From Bordetella parapertussis (GTDB taxonomy: Bacteria; Acidobacteriota; Terriglobia; Bryobacterales; Bryobacteraceae), in assembly GCA_943328975.2 (NCBI GenBank), contig CALQCC020000003.1, forward strand, positions 62,001-126,000: DNA of 64,000 nucleotides. Direction: 5' to 3'. Positions 16,462 through 24,914 of the stretch are shown here, piece by piece (positions within the stretch are counted from its first letter, which is position 1; each line of letters opens with the position of its first letter). The position numbers were made by a program, and so were the translations under genes. A model generated the notes under the pieces. The model worked only from the letters and a program-made list of their open reading frames with translations. It ran no database searches and was not told where the DNA came from.

Positions 16462-16480
16462 GTAACATCGCAATTGTTAC
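16462..16480. promoter_or_regulatory. inverted repeat GTAACA-N7-TGTTAC immediately upstream of the ATG at 16483
   Basis: Direct reading: ctctGTAACAtcgcaatTGTTACtcATG. Confidence 0.4.
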
Positions 16481-16482
16481 TC

Positions 16483-17229
16483 ATGAAACTCAGAACTTTA
16501 CTACCACTCCTGATCCTGTGCGGAACTTTCTGTGGCACGATGAACGCGCAGATCACCGCTGTACAGAACGGGGCCAGCTTCGGGACGGCTATCGCCGCCG
16601 GCTCTTGGGCCACGCTCTTCGGCACGTTTGCCGGAGTCACTCAGACCATCGGCCAGACACCTGTTGGTACCAATCTGGCAGGCGTGACCGTGACGGTCGC
16701 CGGCCTGCCTGCGCCGGTCTATTTTGTGTCCACCACGCAGATCAACTTTATCGTTCCCGCCGCCACTGCTGCTGGCTTGCAGCCGCTGCAAGTCAAGACC
16801 GGTACCGCGACGTTCGATAGCACCATCCGCGTTTTGACAGCCGCCCCTGGGCTGTTTACGCAAGACGCCGCGACGCCTCCTAAGGGCGCGGTGCTGAACC
16901 AAAACTTCAGCCTCAATACGTCCACCAACGTCGCCTTGCGCGGCGATATCGTTCAGATCTATGGCAGCGGTCCGGGAGCTTTCAATAACGCTGTCACCGA
17001 CGGCGCCGGCGCGCCCTCTAGCCCGCTGAATCAGACCAAATCGACCCCGCAAGTCTTCGTCGGCGGCATTCCGGCCGAGGTCCAGTTTAGCGGTCTTGCC
17101 CCCAATTTTGCTGCGCTCTGGCAGCTCAACATCAAAGTACCCACGCAGTCCTTCATCACCGGCCGGGTGCCCGTGATGGTGTTTGTCGACGGCGTGAATT
17201 CCAACGAGGTAACGATTTTTGTCCAATAA
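16483..17229 (+). CDS. secreted TIGR03437-like ('Solibacter uncharacterized C-terminal domain') protein
   Basis: 'VQNGASFGTAIAAGSWATLFGTFAG...VTVAGLPAPVYFVSTTQINFIVP' pattern; signal peptide. Confidence 0.8.
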   Translation: MKLRTLLPLLILCGTFCGTMNAQITAVQNGASFGTAIAAGSWATLFGTFAGVTQTIGQTPVGTNLAGVTVTVAGLPAPVYFVSTTQINFIVPAATAAGLQPLQVKTGTATFDSTIRVLTAAPGLFTQDAATPPKGAVLNQNFSLNTSTNVALRGDIVQIYGSGPGAFNNAVTDGAGAPSSPLNQTKSTPQVFVGGIPAEVQFSGLAPNFAALWQLNIKVPTQSFITGRVPVMVFVDGVNSNEVTIFVQ

Positions 17230-19975
17230 GAATTTCTTTCTTTCCTTCCTGCTAGCCTCCGCGAGCCTTACGTTCGCGCAGGAAACAGGGACCCTGACCG
17301 GCTCCGTCTACGATGGACAGACCGGTCGCCCCATCTTGGGAGTCTCGATCGCCGTTGACGGCGTGGTCGACTCCAAGAATGTAACCAACTCCGACGGCCT
17401 GTTTAAATTCTCCGTTCCGGTCGGAAAACACGCCCTGAAATTCACCGCCGGCACCTACCAGCCCGTCGACATCCGCGAAGTTACCATCACCGCGGGAGCC
17501 GTCACCGAAGCCAGCACCTTGATGTCCAACGAACGCCTGGTAACGTCCATTGACGTTGTTGAAAAACTGGACGCTGTAACATCCACTTCAGAAGTCATGC
17601 TGATGGAGCGCAAGCTCTCCGCCGTCGTGAGCGACAGCATCGGCCACCAGGAACTAGCAGAGAGCGCCGCTGGCGATGCCGCTGGAGCTTTGGAAAAAGT
17701 CACCGGCGTCAGCGTGGTGGGCGACGGATTCGTCTACGTCCGCGGCCTGGGCGAACGTTATAGCGCCACCCAACTCAACGGTGCCGTCATCCCGACCACC
17801 GAACCTGAAAAACGCGTTGTGCCGTTGGACTTGTTTCCTTCCGGCATGATCGACAACATCAAGATTGCAAAAACCTACTCTCCCGATCTGCCGGGCGAGT
17901 TTTCCGGCGGTCTGGTCCAGATCACGTCGATGGAGTTTCCTTCCAAGGCCCACCTCAGTGTGTCGGTCAAAGGCGGCTTCAACTCGCAGACCACCAGTAG
18001 CCCGTTCCTAACCTATCCGGGATCCGGCGGTGGAGCGGATTTCTGGGGCTTTGGCTCCGGTTCGCGCAACCTGCCCAGCAGCATCGGCCCGGACCAACGT
18101 CTCTTCCAGGGCAGCGTCCCCTCCGATCAACTACAGGCCTTCGGCCAAGCGTTCGCGAATAACTGGGAGCCCACCAAAATCGGTTCGCAGCGACCCGCGG
18201 CCGATTGGTCTGTCAATGGCGGCAATACGTGGGGCAAGCTCGGCTTGGTCAGCGCGCTGACCTTTTCGAACAAGCCTTCCTATCACAAGGAAGTCCAACG
18301 CTACATCCGCCAGGACGGCAATACCCCCTACATCTTCACCGAATACCCGGACTTCCGGGAGTACACCGAAAACGCCCGCCTCGGAGCGGTGTTAAACGGC
18401 GCCTACCGCCTCACGCCGAACCACAAAATCCTGTTCAAGAACATGTTCACGCATGACACCGACAAGAACGCTCGCGAATTTTCGGGCGCCGACGGTGGCA
18501 CGGGTAGCAATCTGGAATCGCAGCGCTTGCGCTACGTTGAACGTTCGCTGTATTCGAGTGGCGTGGAAGGCGATCACTCTTTCGTCAACTTGCACAACAG
18601 CGTGATCCACTGGCAATTCACGTATTCCAACTCTAAGCGCAACGAGCCCGACCTGCGCGAAGTCTTCCGCGGCCAACTGCAAAATGGCGACTATCAATTC
18701 GCAGCCCTGGGCAGTTCCGCAGTCCGGTTCTTCTCGAATCTCAACGACCATATTTACGAGCCCCAGACCGATTACAGTGTTCCCTTCTTCAAGGGATCGG
18801 TCACCGGCCTGTTCAAGATTGGCGCGCGTGCCACGATTCGGCGCCGCGATTTCCAGGCCCGGCGCTTCCGCTACATTCCGCAGCGCCTCAGCACACTGAA
18901 TCTTCTGCTACCCAGCAACCAATTGTTCGCGCCGGAAAACATTCGGCCCGACGGATTCCAATTGGTGGAATTCACGCGCGGCACCGATAGCTACACCGCA
19001 TCCGGGGACATCTACGCTGGCTACGCCATGGTAGACCTCAACTTCGGAGCGAAGTGGCGCCTTTCCGGCGGTCTCCGCATCGAAGACGCCAACCAGAACG
19101 TGCTGACGGTGGACAACCGCATCCCGGGATCGGTTCCTGTCCGCGCGGCGCTCCAAAATCGGGACCCGGTTCCCGCCGTCAACCTCATCTACGCGTTCTC
19201 GCAGAAGCAAAACTTCCGCGCTTCCTATAGCCGCACTCTGTCGCGCCCCGACTTCCGCGAACTTTCGCCCTTCGACTTCAACAACGTTCTGGGCGGCTTC
19301 GTCACCGTCGGCAACGCGAACCTCCAGCGAGCCTCCATCAACAACTACGACTTCCGCTGGGAGATGTTCCCCGGCGGCAACCAACTTATCGCGGCCAGCT
19401 TCTTCCTCAAGAACTTCAACAGCCCGATCGAATCGACCATCCTTCCCTCCAACGACCTGCGGCAGAGTTTCATCAACGCCAAGGGCGCGCGGAATCTAGG
19501 CATCGAGCTGGAAGTGCGGCAAGATTTAGCGCCGTTGTGGAGCGCCCTGAAGGAATTTTCACTCTCCAGTAACTTCACCTTCGTAGACTCGAATATCAAG
19601 ATCAAGCCCGAAGATGCCGCGATTCTTACGTCTCAGAGCCGCCCGCTGCTGGGGCAATCGCGAATCGTCTATAACGGAGCCATCCAGTGGGCCCGTCCCC
19701 GCTGGCACAGCGATGCCCGGTTGTTCGCGGGTTACGTTTCACGCCGCATCACCGATGTGGGGACGTTCAACCTTCCTGACATCTACCAGGAAGCGACGCC
19801 CAACATTGACTTCGTCTACCAATACACGCGTGGGGAACGCGGACAGTGGGTCTACCGCGTGGAAGGTGAAAACCTCACCAACACCGACTTCCGCTGGACG
19901 CAAGGGCAGTTCACGCAACGGCAATACGTTCTCGGCCGGACCTTCCAGGTCGGCCTGACCTATACATTTTTCTAG
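17219..19975 (+). CDS. TonB-dependent receptor with carboxypeptidase-regulatory-like N-terminal domain
   Basis: 'TGTLTGSVYDGQTGRPILGVSIAVDG', plug 'YVRGLGERYSATQLNGAVIPTTEPEKRVVPLDLFPSGMIDNI', C-terminal beta-signal 'FQVGLTYTFF'; TTG start overlapping the upstream stop. Confidence 0.92.
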   Translation: MSNKNFFLSFLLASASLTFAQETGTLTGSVYDGQTGRPILGVSIAVDGVVDSKNVTNSDGLFKFSVPVGKHALKFTAGTYQPVDIREVTITAGAVTEASTLMSNERLVTSIDVVEKLDAVTSTSEVMLMERKLSAVVSDSIGHQELAESAAGDAAGALEKVTGVSVVGDGFVYVRGLGERYSATQLNGAVIPTTEPEKRVVPLDLFPSGMIDNIKIAKTYSPDLPGEFSGGLVQITSMEFPSKAHLSVSVKGGFNSQTTSSPFLTYPGSGGGADFWGFGSGSRNLPSSIGPDQRLFQGSVPSDQLQAFGQAFANNWEPTKIGSQRPAADWSVNGGNTWGKLGLVSALTFSNKPSYHKEVQRYIRQDGNTPYIFTEYPDFREYTENARLGAVLNGAYRLTPNHKILFKNMFTHDTDKNAREFSGADGGTGSNLESQRLRYVERSLYSSGVEGDHSFVNLHNSVIHWQFTYSNSKRNEPDLREVFRGQLQNGDYQFAALGSSAVRFFSNLNDHIYEPQTDYSVPFFKGSVTGLFKIGARATIRRRDFQARRFRYIPQRLSTLNLLLPSNQLFAPENIRPDGFQLVEFTRGTDSYTASGDIYAGYAMVDLNFGAKWRLSGGLRIEDANQNVLTVDNRIPGSVPVRAALQNRDPVPAVNLIYAFSQKQNFRASYSRTLSRPDFRELSPFDFNNVLGGFVTVGNANLQRASINNYDFRWEMFPGGNQLIAASFFLKNFNSPIESTILPSNDLRQSFINAKGARNLGIELEVRQDLAPLWSALKEFSLSSNFTFVDSNIKIKPEDAAILTSQSRPLLGQSRIVYNGAIQWARPRWHSDARLFAGYVSRRITDVGTFNLPDIYQEATPNIDFVYQYTRGERGQWVYRVEGENLTNTDFRWTQGQFTQRQYVLGRTFQVGLTYTFF

Positions 19976-19996
19976 ATCGAATTTTTAGGAGACAAA

Positions 19997-21778
19997 ATGC
20001 GAGTAACTTCCATACTTACGCTCGGAGTGTGTCTGGCCGCCCTGCTGCCAGCACAAGACAAAGTTTCGGCATCGCGCGAGGCCGCTGTTTACAACGGACC
20101 GCGCGTGACCACCTCCATGTATATTTGGAGCGACAAATATACCTACAATCCCGGCCAGGCGCTGACGCTGAAGTGGACGGTGAAGACCAACAACGACCTG
20201 TATCCGTACACGATGTTCGTCTATCGCCAGAACAACCAGACGGGCGCGAAGACCTATTACCCGGCGGGAACCTCCGCTGTGACCGATATCAACGGCAGCA
20301 CGCTGGCCCAGGGTTTCCAGGCCGCGCGTTTGACGGATAAGTCCAAGGCGATCCTACTGGGCGCCGGCGGCATTGCGGCCTCGGTAGTCATGCCGAACGA
20401 ACTGGGCATGCACACTTTCGTCGTGGAACTGCGCGACTATACAGGCACGCATCCGCTGAAGACGGCCTACATGAAGGTCGGCGTGGTCTCCTCCACCGTG
20501 ACCCTGACGGGCGACATCACGTCCAGCCGCACACTGACCAACGACACACTCTGGCAGATCTCCGGTCTCACCACCGTCAAGAACGGTGCAGTCCTTACCG
20601 TTCAGCCTGGCACCTTCGTCGTCGGTTTGCCGGGTTCGCAACCTGCATCCGTCCTGCTGGTTTCTCGCGAAGGCCGCATCGACGCGGCTGGTACGGAAGC
20701 CCGGCCCATCGTCTTCACCAGCTCGCGTCCCTTCGGACAGCGGCAGCGTGGGGATTGGGGCGGCGTTCTGATGTTGGGCAAAGCTCCGGTCAATACCGCT
20801 GCCAACATCGGTACCGTGGGCAACACGGCTGGCTCCTTCTATATCGAGGGCTTGACCACGAATCCCGATGGACTGTACGGCGGCACGGATCCGACCCACA
20901 ATTGCGGCACGATGACCTACGTGCGCGTCGAATACTCCGGCGTGACGTTGTCTCCCAACAACGAAACCAACTCCTTCACCTGGGCTGGCTGCGGCACTGG
21001 GACCACGGCGCATCACTTGCAGGCGATCTTTGGCGGCGATGATAATTTTGAGTGGTTCGGTGGGACGATGAACACCAAGTACGTGGTGGGCGGTTTGAAT
21101 GCGGACGACAGCGCCGACTTCCAACTCGGCACCACCGGCAAACTTCAGTTCGGCATGTTCTATCAGAGCCCCGACTCGCGCGGCAATCGTGGCATCGAAG
21201 GCGACAACAGCGAATACAACGCGGCAGCGACCCCCGTCTCTGATCCCACTTTCTACAACCTGACGTTCTTCGGCAGCGGCAATCCGGGTTTCGACGAAGC
21301 GGCCGCACCCGGCATCTTCCTGCGCCGCGGCGCTCGCGGAACGTTCAACAACATTGTCGTCTCCAACTTCTCCAGCCCGTGCATGGACATTAGCGACGCC
21401 ACCACGCAGACGCAGGCCGATGCAGGCAACGTCAAGATGGACGGCATCCTCTGCTGGAAGAATAATCGCGGCACCGCGAACGCCGCGGACACTCTGGCGG
21501 GACAGATCACCTCCGCCTATTCGTCCTCCTATGCCAACGGCGGCAAGGGCAACGGAGCCGGCCAGAACTTCCTGGTGGCCGACCCCCTGATCCAGCGGCC
21601 CTTTGAATACAGCGATCCGGACTTCTTCAGCCTCTTCAGCAGCCCGGTGTTCCGCGCCGGCTGGGTGAACGCTCCGGACGATGGCTTCTTCGACCAGGTC
21701 CGCTTCATCGGTGCCTTTGGCGATACCGACTGGACGCAGGGCTGGACAAGCTGGCTGGTCGATAGCGACATCCAGTAA
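19997..21778 (+). CDS. secreted protein, beta-helix/parallel-repeat-like, partner of TonB receptor
   Basis: Signal peptide; 'TLTGDITSSRTLTNDTLWQISGLTTVKNGAVLTVQPGTFVVG...ARPIVFTSSRPFGQRQRGDWGGVLMLG' pattern. Confidence 0.65.
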   Translation: MRVTSILTLGVCLAALLPAQDKVSASREAAVYNGPRVTTSMYIWSDKYTYNPGQALTLKWTVKTNNDLYPYTMFVYRQNNQTGAKTYYPAGTSAVTDINGSTLAQGFQAARLTDKSKAILLGAGGIAASVVMPNELGMHTFVVELRDYTGTHPLKTAYMKVGVVSSTVTLTGDITSSRTLTNDTLWQISGLTTVKNGAVLTVQPGTFVVGLPGSQPASVLLVSREGRIDAAGTEARPIVFTSSRPFGQRQRGDWGGVLMLGKAPVNTAANIGTVGNTAGSFYIEGLTTNPDGLYGGTDPTHNCGTMTYVRVEYSGVTLSPNNETNSFTWAGCGTGTTAHHLQAIFGGDDNFEWFGGTMNTKYVVGGLNADDSADFQLGTTGKLQFGMFYQSPDSRGNRGIEGDNSEYNAAATPVSDPTFYNLTFFGSGNPGFDEAAAPGIFLRRGARGTFNNIVVSNFSSPCMDISDATTQTQADAGNVKMDGILCWKNNRGTANAADTLAGQITSAYSSSYANGGKGNGAGQNFLVADPLIQRPFEYSDPDFFSLFSSPVFRAGWVNAPDDGFFDQVRFIGAFGDTDWTQGWTSWLVDSDIQ

Positions 21779-21884: not shown

Positions 21885-22040
21885 AAACTTTCTTCTTCCC
21901 AACTTCACAGGCCGAGACTATACTCGGTTTGTAGCTGGGGGAACTTGTCAGCCGCCCACTCGCTGCTCCCATTCGTCGAGCAGCCTCCGCACCCCGTTGT
22001 GCTCCTATGCGTGCTTTTCCCCAAAACCAAGGAGTGTTCA

Positions 22041-22478
22041 GTGGTAGATACGGCCAAAGTGTACCTAGTGGGTGCGGGTCTGGGTGACCCCGACTTGTTG
22101 ACTCGAAAAGCGGAGCGGATGCTCCGGTCGGCGGATGCGGTGATCTACGATCGTAAGGTCAGTCCACAGATCCTCGGCCTGGCCGGTGCGGCCACTCGTT
22201 GTGTTGCCGTGGGTTCCGAGCCGTCAGATGAAGAACACCGTGCCGAGGTCTGCGGCTGGTATCTACGACTGCGAGAAACCTGTGCTTCGATGGTTCGGCT
22301 GACTTTCACAGACCCGCTCATCGAAGGCGAAGCCAACGAAGAAATGGAGTTCCTTTTGCGCCACGGCTTTGAGGTGGAGGTGCTCCCCGGGATTCTAGCT
22401 GAGACCGTTTACGAGTGTCGCGCCGCGGTGCGTGAAGCCAATATGGCCGCTCATGAAACCAGTAAAACCACCCGCTGA
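22041..22478 (+). CDS. short (145 aa) divergent tetrapyrrole methylase-like N-terminal domain (CobA/SUMT-like)
   Basis: 'KVYLVGAGLGDPDLLTRKAERMLRSADAVIYDRKVSPQIL' matches the SUMT N-terminus; 'MVRLTFTDPLIEGEANEEMEFLLRHGFEVEVLPGI' aligns to the RLKGGDPFIFGRGGEE region but is degenerate; stops before the second domain. Confidence 0.65.
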   Translation: MVDTAKVYLVGAGLGDPDLLTRKAERMLRSADAVIYDRKVSPQILGLAGAATRCVAVGSEPSDEEHRAEVCGWYLRLRETCASMVRLTFTDPLIEGEANEEMEFLLRHGFEVEVLPGILAETVYECRAAVREANMAAHETSKTTR

Positions 22479-22483
22479 CGAAC

Positions 22484-23263
22484 CTACCCCTGTGACAGCA
22501 AGCGTCCATAGCCAGGAGCGCGTCCGCTAAGCCCCACCAGCCGGACCCCTGCACGCAGAGCGTGCGGCGTGCTGGACACAGCCGGCACTTTCGTCTGCGC
22601 CTCCAGCGGAGCCAGGATTTCCAGTGTGCGCAATCCACCGCAGGACACCAACATGCCGTCCGCCTTCGGAGCCATCTTGAACACACTCACGCAGAACTTG
22701 AGTAAATCGTCCTGCCTCACGTCGTTCACGCCGGCCACGGCTTCGATGCCTAGACCCTTCATCGCGAGGACTTCAAATCCAGACTCGGCGAGAAACGCGC
22801 GCAAGCGGGAATTCACTTCCTCGTTGTAAGCCGTCGCCACCGCGAGCCGCTTGGTCTTCATCGCACGCAGGCCTTCGATCACGCCCGTGCTCATCGTAGT
22901 GGTCGGGAGTCCGGTGGCCTGCTTGATCGTGTCGGTCAATTTTTGGTTGAACGCAGCGCCCTTGTAGAAACTCAACGAAGTTCCCATCAGCGTGATGGCT
23001 TTCACCCCAGCGGCCTTCAACTTGCGCGCCGCTGCCGGGATATCGTCCAGCACCGCGTCATAGCCTTCGGGTGTTAACGTTTTCAGATCCAAGTTCGCCG
23101 TGACAAAGCGCACGCCCTTGGGATACATCGCGAGCCCTTCTTCGGGGATGGGACGATCCACAGGGAAAATCAATCCGAGCAGTGGATCGGCCGCGGACAC
23201 CATTTGTGCGCTCGCAATCGCGGCCGCGCTGGTTCCAATAAATTGACGACGGGATAGATGCAC
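22484..23263 (-). CDS. arylmalonate decarboxylase / Asp-Glu racemase superfamily protein with twin-arginine-like signal
   Basis: 'LKTLTPEGYDAVLDDI', 'MGTSLSFYKGAAFNQKLTDTIKQATGLPTTTMSTGVIEGLRAM', 'SCGGLRTLEILAPLEAQTKVPAVSSTPHALRAGVRLVGL', 'PGYGRLL' closely follow the AMDase pattern; N-terminal 'SRRQFIGTSAAAIASA'; GTG start with SD GGAGAG. Confidence 0.85.
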   Translation of the reverse strand: MHLSRRQFIGTSAAAIASAQMVSAADPLLGLIFPVDRPIPEEGLAMYPKGVRFVTANLDLKTLTPEGYDAVLDDIPAAARKLKAAGVKAITLMGTSLSFYKGAAFNQKLTDTIKQATGLPTTTMSTGVIEGLRAMKTKRLAVATAYNEEVNSRLRAFLAESGFEVLAMKGLGIEAVAGVNDVRQDDLLKFCVSVFKMAPKADGMLVSCGGLRTLEILAPLEAQTKVPAVSSTPHALRAGVRLVGLSGRAPGYGRLLSQG

Positions 23264-23279
23264 GTTTACTCTCCTATTT

Positions 23280-24914
23280 ATGCGCTTCACCATCCTATCA
23301 GCCGTGACCTTCGCGTTGGCGGCCCTCGCCCAAGCGCAGCCGGACCGTTGTGCCAGCTCCGGAGACCTTCGCCTCATCAACGGACGCATCCACACGATGA
23401 ACGCCCAGGACACAGTGGTTACGGAGGTCACCATTCAAAGCGGCCGCATCACATCCGTGGGCGCAGCCACTCCGAATCCCGACCCGTGTACGCGCACCAT
23501 TGACCTGCAAGGCCGCACCGCAGTGCCCGGCCTCATCGACAATCACAACCACATCGTGCTCCTCGGCCTGCGTCCCGGCTATGACACGCGACTCGAAACG
23601 GCTGGTTCCATCGCCGACGTCCAAGCCGCGATCCGCACGCGCGCCGCCGGTGTTCCGCGAGGCGCCTTCATCACAGCCATGGGCGGTTGGAACCAAGTGC
23701 AGTTTACTGAGAAGCGCTTGCCCACCCTGGCGGAACTCGACGCCGCCGCGCCGAACCATCCAGTCATCGTGTATCAAGCCTTCACCGGACCCGCCGCTAC
23801 CAACAGTCTCGGTCGTGCGTTCTTTGCGCAAAAAGGCGTGACCGTCAGCGCCACGGGAGCCATCGCGGCGAACGCACCATCCGTCGCCGCGCTGAACGCT
23901 CTGCGCGCGGTGCAAACCTTCGAAGACAAGAAGCGCGGCACGCTCGACGCCATGAATTACGCAGCCAGTGTCGGCCTCACCACGAACGTCGACATGGGAG
24001 CCTTCCTCCCGCCCGGCCTCGAAAACATCCAGGAGTCCTTCACCTTCGATGGCCTTGCGACGGAGAGTCCCTTCACGATGTACGATGCGTTCAACACGCT
24101 CCATCGCGAAGGCAAGATGTCCACCCGCCTGCGCGTCTTCTTCCTCAGCATGGATACGCGCCCCGACGTCCCCATGTTGGGCGACCGGCTGCGCAACACG
24201 TTCGAGGGCTTCGGCGACGATATGCTGCGGTTGTCCGGTATCGGCGAGTTTGCGTCGAGTTGGCCGCTGTTCGGGCAAGTGACCACCCCTCCAAACTATG
24301 AAACGGCTTTGCAGCTCATCGCCAAACAGGGCTGGGCCTTCCAGCAACACAGTCTCTCGCTGGTAGAAGATCAACTTACGGCCACGACGTTCGAAAAGGT
24401 CAACGCCACTACGCCAATCAAGGATCTCCGTTGGTCCGTTGCTCACGTGCCGCGTATCAATCTCGAAACCATCAATCGCTTCAAAGCCATCGGCGCGGCC
24501 ATCGCGGTGCATCCTTTCGAGTACCTTGCGGGCGGTCCGAACGCTGGCCCGCCGTTGCGCACGATTCTCGATAGCGGCATCCGCGTCGGAGCCGGTTCCG
24601 ACGCCGCGCAGATCTCGACCCTCAATCCCTGGCTGATCCTCTACTACATGGTCACCGGCAAGAACTCCTCCGGAGTCTTGATCAATGACGGCCAGCAAGT
24701 AACGCGCACCGAAGCGCTGCGTCTCTACACCTCCGCGAATGGTTGGTTCTTGAAAGAAGAATCCACGCTCGGGAGCATTGAACCCGGCAAGCTCGGCGAC
24801 GTCGTTGTCTTGAACGAAGACTATTTCAACCCGACCGCCGTCCCCGATGAGCGGCTCAAGTCCATCAAGCCCGCCATGACGATCGTCGGCGGAAAAATCG
24901 TCTACGGCCAGTAG
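23280..24914 (+). CDS. secreted amidohydrolase family protein (YtcJ-like)
   Basis: Signal peptide; 'TAVPGLIDNHNHIVLLGLRPGYD', 'GIRVGAGSDAAQISTLNPWLILYYMVTGKN', 'GSIEPGKLGDVVVLNEDYF'. Confidence 0.88.
   Translation: MRFTILSAVTFALAALAQAQPDRCASSGDLRLINGRIHTMNAQDTVVTEVTIQSGRITSVGAATPNPDPCTRTIDLQGRTAVPGLIDNHNHIVLLGLRPGYDTRLETAGSIADVQAAIRTRAAGVPRGAFITAMGGWNQVQFTEKRLPTLAELDAAAPNHPVIVYQAFTGPAATNSLGRAFFAQKGVTVSATGAIAANAPSVAALNALRAVQTFEDKKRGTLDAMNYAASVGLTTNVDMGAFLPPGLENIQESFTFDGLATESPFTMYDAFNTLHREGKMSTRLRVFFLSMDTRPDVPMLGDRLRNTFEGFGDDMLRLSGIGEFASSWPLFGQVTTPPNYETALQLIAKQGWAFQQHSLSLVEDQLTATTFEKVNATTPIKDLRWSVAHVPRINLETINRFKAIGAAIAVHPFEYLAGGPNAGPPLRTILDSGIRVGAGSDAAQISTLNPWLILYYMVTGKNSSGVLINDGQQVTRTEALRLYTSANGWFLKEESTLGSIEPGKLGDVVVLNEDYFNPTAVPDERLKSIKPAMTIVGGKIVYGQ

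Follow-up and report, generated by a model that had tools for sequence, protein, structure and literature searches.

What might an arylmalonate decarboxylase (AMDase) homologue with an apparent export signal do in an acidobacterium? AMDase is a much-engineered, cofactor-free biocatalyst, and its physiological role is poorly known. The window, that is, the whole stretch of 64,000 nucleotides analysed here, carries on its minus strand a gene for an apparently exported AMDase-like protein at 22484-23263, identified by Pfam, NCBIfam and AlphaFold evidence, which encodes 259 amino acids from a GTG start at 23263. The earlier note had placed the open reading frame exactly there, leaving the strand unstated, and the motifs it quoted were all found in the protein (GTSLSFYKGAAFN, TGLPTTTMST, SCGGLRTL, PAVSS, PGYGRL and the N-terminal VHLSRRQFIGTSAAAIASAQMVSA). 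The frame is also open from an upstream start at 23434, which would give 316 amino acids. Because a Shine-Dalgarno-like AGGAG (23271-23275, minus strand) lies 7 nt before the GTG, and because the longer form would overlap the divergent amidohydrolase gene (ATG at 23280), the 259-residue form is likely the AMDase protein.

We then asked whether the protein belongs to the AMDases proper. Membership was judged by the 12 criteria of Maimanakos et al. 2016 (PMC4996985) together with Pfam and NCBIfam. The Pfam model Amdase (PF17645) was covered in full (E=2.2e-78, 263.5 bits, cut-off 25.9), and the arylmalonate decarboxylase equivalog NF052327 of NCBIfam gave 273.2 bits against a cut-off of 225; the similarity to the EutA model TIGR02990 was weak (70 bits against a cut-off of 318). 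The best solved structures in a PDB search were all Bordetella AMDase (E 2.6e-60). An AlphaFold model, for which the window and the locus homologues served as input (pLDDT 92.1, pTM 0.87), matched the Bordetella structure 3DG9 with TM scores of 0.86/0.95, an rmsd of 1.4 and 46% identity in the structural match, and maleate isomerases came behind 3DG9 (4fq5 and 2xed, ~20% identity). Judged by these comparisons, the similarity to AMDase is far beyond chance, and the homology announced in the earlier note holds for profiles and structures alike.

The active site points the same way. On the alignment, the proton donor Cys188 of the Bordetella enzyme corresponds to Cys208, within SCGGL (codon 22640-22642, minus strand), which is invariant in the AMDase-type rows. 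The second-Cys position, 74, is Gly (G94), and the codons of G94-T95-S96 occupy 22976-22984 (minus strand), T95 and S96 being the equivalents of the dioxyanion-hole residues T75 and S76. The whole dioxyanion hole (T75, S76, Y126, G189) is kept as T95, S96, Y146 and G209. The motif at 72-79, LMGTSLSF, is identical, and that at 184-191 is similar (ILLSCGGL, here MLVSCGGL). The hydrophobic pocket L40, V43, Y48, V156, M159 becomes L60, L63, Y68, V176, V179, with L40, Y48 and V156 identical and the two remaining changes, V43L and M159V, conservative.

In the prototype AMDase, the dioxyanion hole holds one carboxylate, the other is lost from the hydrophobic pocket, and Cys188 protonates the resulting enediolate from one side (PMC4517146, PMC12576825). 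Every element of this mechanism is present in the sequence of the window protein. By analogy, the window enzyme would be a decarboxylase. We consider it rather probable that it works in the periplasm after export by the Tat system, that it decarboxylates aryl malonates or other substituted malonates with a single Cys and no cofactor, and that it belongs to one exported clade. The AMDase-like protein would be folded and then exported to the periplasm by the Tat system, where T95, S96, Y146 and G209 would hold one carboxylate of a substituted malonate; the other, destabilised in the pocket formed by L60, L63, Y68, V176 and V179, would leave as CO2, and Cys208 would protonate the enediolate from one face, giving a chiral monoacid available for uptake. 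With export, the substrate would be met in the periplasm, and the enzyme would therefore work ahead of uptake.

How widespread is such an enzyme? Homologues were sampled by family-, phylum- and relative-wide searches, a scan of genome contigs, the gamma- and alpha-proteobacterial groups, and plasmids. In a tree of the mature domains, all signal-bearing proteins formed one clade (ultrafast bootstrap 99, SH-aLRT 97) with one change of state, and its support was 100/96 when long branches were left out. This clade stands apart from the cytosolic-type AMDases sampled, the canonical comparison set being small (n=8), and joins Acidobacteria, one gamma-proteobacterial family and two more MAGs titled proteobacteria. 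The gamma-proteobacterial family has an exported AMDase in 12 of 99 genomes. In the family of the window it was found in 15 of 237 genomes, from 4 of 76 genera, and in the phylum-wide sample in 1 of 396 genomes; the exported AMDase is therefore an accessory gene. One record in the sample, L021, has a title (Klebsiella pneumoniae isolate MoH-23oct19-118) at odds with its sequence: its AMDase groups with proteins of gamma-proteobacterial MAGs, and the genome is ~2.9 Mb.

The natural substrate is a more delicate matter. The sole departure of the window protein among the residue and motif criteria of Maimanakos et al. 2016 (PMC4996985) concerns the P14-P15 pair of the large binding pocket. The sequence here is F-P-V-D-R, in a loop one residue shorter, so that one Pro is kept and the second is replaced or deleted, according to the alignment; most other clade members have PP. 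In engineered Bordetella AMDase, changes of P14/P15 widen the aromatic channel (PMC4517146). Given the altered pair (P-V, one residue shorter) and M159V, aryl malonates may not be the substrate of the window enzyme. Other members of the clade differ further, with an F40 and T159 pocket in L002, L009, L012, L028, L029, L031 and L032, and an F156, R159 and A190 pocket in L007, L008, L015, L018, L023 and L053. Since the pockets diverge, the natural substrate probably differs between subclades. The window genome itself carries two members, the window type and a paralogue on contig 21 (L002, 51% identity), and their different pockets suggest that the two act on different substrates.

A second feature sets the exported clade apart. 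His234 (codon 22562-22564, minus strand) is invariant in it: in the column comparison, all 39 exported members had His, and all 8 cytosolic-type AMDases sampled had Ala. In the secondary structure of the model, this residue stands at the N-terminus of the helix after the strand that succeeds the Cys208 strand. From the fold topology, His234 would face the edge of the active site, where it may alter substrate binding or proton delivery. One could imagine that the fold of the exported enzyme has been turned to a different reaction altogether, in which His234 would serve as a second acid/base across from Cys208; examples would be the deprotonation and protonation of a C-H group in a carboxylic acid, or the decarboxylation of an acid other than a malonate. 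The invariance of this His, replaced by Ala elsewhere, would suit such an enzyme, as would the strong divergence of the acidobacterial subclade pockets (F40/T159 or F156/R159/A190 against L40/M159/V156/G190) and the presence of two catalytic residues in members of the Asp/Glu racemase superfamily (PMC4996985). However, the enzyme keeps the G74-T75-S76 dioxyanion motif as well as Y126, C188 and G189, and it exceeds the NCBIfam equivalog cut-off; we hold a different reaction to be unlikely. Decarboxylation of a substituted malonate is the activity that we think most likely for the window enzyme.

The other part of our proposal is its location. Tat features were judged by sequence layout, conservation in homologues and frequency in background ORFs. 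A Tat signal peptide is predicted at residues 1-24 (VHLSRRQFIGTSAAAIASAQMVSA; 23192-23263, minus strand), with the twin Arg at residues 5-6 (SRRQFI at 4-9) and an AxA-like site, VSA, after which the protein is likely cut so that the mature part begins with AD. AlphaFold modelled residues 1-20 with low confidence, as one would expect of a signal peptide, and a single tatC is present in the genome (TatC E=1e-57). The same RR-x-[FLIM] layout recurs in about 38 distinct homologous proteins, which come from Acidobacteria and from MAGs of gamma-proteobacteria. Indeed, among the 39 distinct clade members every intact N-terminus has RR followed by a weakly hydrophobic stretch (that of L023, cut by a contig end, being outside the count), and the RR mostly comes 3-5 residues into the protein, some 24 residues ahead of the mature domain. 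None of the 8 canonical-type AMDases has the signal (Bordetella, Roseomonas, two Rhizobiales, Aminobacter, Ponticoccus and two others). Among 430 background ORFs of at least 220 aa, 4.7% have a comparable N-terminus, a figure that includes true Tat substrates. The Tat-like export signal put forward in the earlier note is thus borne out by the twin Arg, the AxA-like site, their conservation across the whole clade and the tatC gene. A periplasmic location of the homologue is well supported by this sequence evidence, and the window protein itself would be exported.

It could be argued that the enzyme is a cytoplasmic AMDase whose N-terminal extension is a non-functional signal, as the signal is read from sequence features and its 12-residue hydropathy, 1.51, is modest. 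However, such an N-terminus is kept in about 38 proteins from two phyla and lacking in all eight AMDases outside the clade, tatC is present, and the background frequency is 4.7%; we consider a cytoplasmic enzyme very improbable. As for a two-Cys maleate isomerase or Asp/Glu-type racemase, of which distant superfamily kinship is the one sign (4fq5, 2xed), we regard it as extremely improbable: position 74 is Gly, the one further Cys of the protein, C191, falls outside both SCGGL and GTS, and the structural match to AMDase has 46% identity. The earlier note had asked whether one or two catalytic Cys are present, and the alignment with AMDase shows one; the grouping with two-Cys isomerases or racemases that it named as a refutation did not occur.

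We also examined the surroundings of the gene. A divergent gene for an exported amidohydrolase (Amidohydro_3 by Pfam; 23280-24914, plus strand) adjoins the AMDase gene, with 16 bp between the start codons. The earlier note had envisaged a fixed neighbour, and none was found: neighbours vary, the amidohydrolase is unlinked elsewhere, and the recurrent types are little above background density. The amidohydrolase was rejected as a fixed partner because its orthologues lie elsewhere in the genomes G007, G014, G020 and G022, and because orthologues occur in G004, G008, G018 and G019 as well, four genomes in which the searches found no AMDase. In G007, a 60% amidohydrolase paralogue adjoins the AMDase, on the other side than in the window. 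G008, a genome of the same genus, has an amidohydrolase 83% identical to that of the window and flanks syntenic on both sides (ligA, DGK, MTase, amidohydrolase, short TP_methylase, acs, addB-like). There, the slot beside the amidohydrolase holds a gene of the GH88 family, and the amidohydrolase therefore stands without the AMDase.

This slot shows a gene swap, with the AMDase gene at 22484-23280 of the window and the GH88-family gene in G008 (L145 5525-6951). Each is transcribed divergently from the same amidohydrolase gene, the start codons being about 13-16 bp apart, and TAGGAGA occurs at both junctions. On the other side of the window AMDase, a gene at 21945-22478 (plus strand) encodes a half-length tetrapyrrole-methylase-like protein that matches positions 1-119 of the 212 of TP_methylase. 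As a copy with 61% identity is kept next to acs in the same-genus relative (L145 6885-7322, minus strand), it seems to have been maintained as a short protein rather than to be simply decaying. Between acs and this gene, the window has three genes at 16474-21778 (plus strand), for a TIG-domain protein, a TonB-dependent receptor and a 593-aa secreted protein without Pfam match; they are absent from the syntenic G008, which has a metallo-beta-lactamase-like gene instead.

Over the 39 loci with exported AMDases, which include related, non-independent loci, the recurrent neighbours were a PQQ dehydrogenase (9/39), DUF6152 (7/39) and a secreted family without Pfam match (7/39). Their densities per kb in control regions of the same or related genomes were 0.009, 0.015 and 0.022, respectively, and their recurrence is close to background. 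For the PQQ dehydrogenase, ~2 adjacent loci were estimated by chance and 5 were seen; with a high background and kin loci this is too little, and we claim no link. In five loci of gamma-proteobacteria and two of Acidobacteria, a member of the secreted family lies at a distance of 14-42 bp from the exported AMDase, in differing orientations (for example L093 8003-8791 and L042 7193-8011, both minus strand), and is also common in control regions. Three close relatives have a carbonyl-reducing gene directly upstream, in an apparent operon with the AMDase: an aldo/keto reductase beside sister AMDases in L038 (7 bp apart) and L040 (4-bp overlap), and an iron alcohol dehydrogenase in L013 (4 bp apart). 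These genes give a weak hint that an alcohol or an aldehyde is connected with the substrate or the product. One canonical AMDase, on a Ponticoccus plasmid, stands in a different setting, among genes for a TTT transporter, mandelate racemase, alpha-hydroxy acid oxidase, aldehyde dehydrogenase and a ThDP enzyme. Beside the window AMDase we found neither a TTT/TRAP transporter gene nor one for mandelate racemase, and the lack of such transporter genes there fits, weakly, with action in the periplasm.

Altogether, the window protein shares with the AMDase of Bordetella bronchiseptica KU1201 (EC 4.1.1.76; 3DG9, 2VLB, 3IP8) the fold, 46% identity, the dioxyanion hole, the equivalent of Cys188, Gly74 and the LMGTSLSF and SCGGL motifs, but differs from it by the predicted Tat signal, the altered P14-P15, M159V and V43L, the invariant His in place of Ala and the acidobacterial host. 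It has the same motif set and belongs to the same NCBIfam/Pfam family as the 58 candidate AMDases of Maimanakos et al. 2016 (PMC4996985), who described AMDases only in Alpha-, Beta- and Gamma-proteobacteria, where transporters and mandelate racemases were among the neighbours; signal peptides and Tat did not turn up in a text search of that paper. With maleate cis-trans isomerase and EutA it shares the fold of the Asp/Glu racemase superfamily, whereas the second active-site Cys of the related racemases (PMC4996985) is Gly here. A literature search, which covered few subscription papers, found no paper that treats arylmalonate together with Acidobacteria, and none that treats malonate decarboxylase together with twin-arginine export. 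The AMDase family itself is known; its exported branch appears to have gone unnoticed.

We speculate, and tentatively so, that the exported His234 clade is a distinct type of periplasmic enzyme of soil Acidobacteria and gamma-proteobacteria, which would combine the AMDase dioxyanion hole with a new histidine, act on a natural malonate-type compound that known cytosolic AMDases refuse, and divide its substrates further among paralogues of the same cell, such as the window protein and its paralogue on contig 21. A monophyletic exported branch in another phylum, with His234 and diverging pockets, would mean that the substrate is met there outside the cytoplasm, and the clade offers ready natural variants with which the substrate and the role of His234 may be tested.
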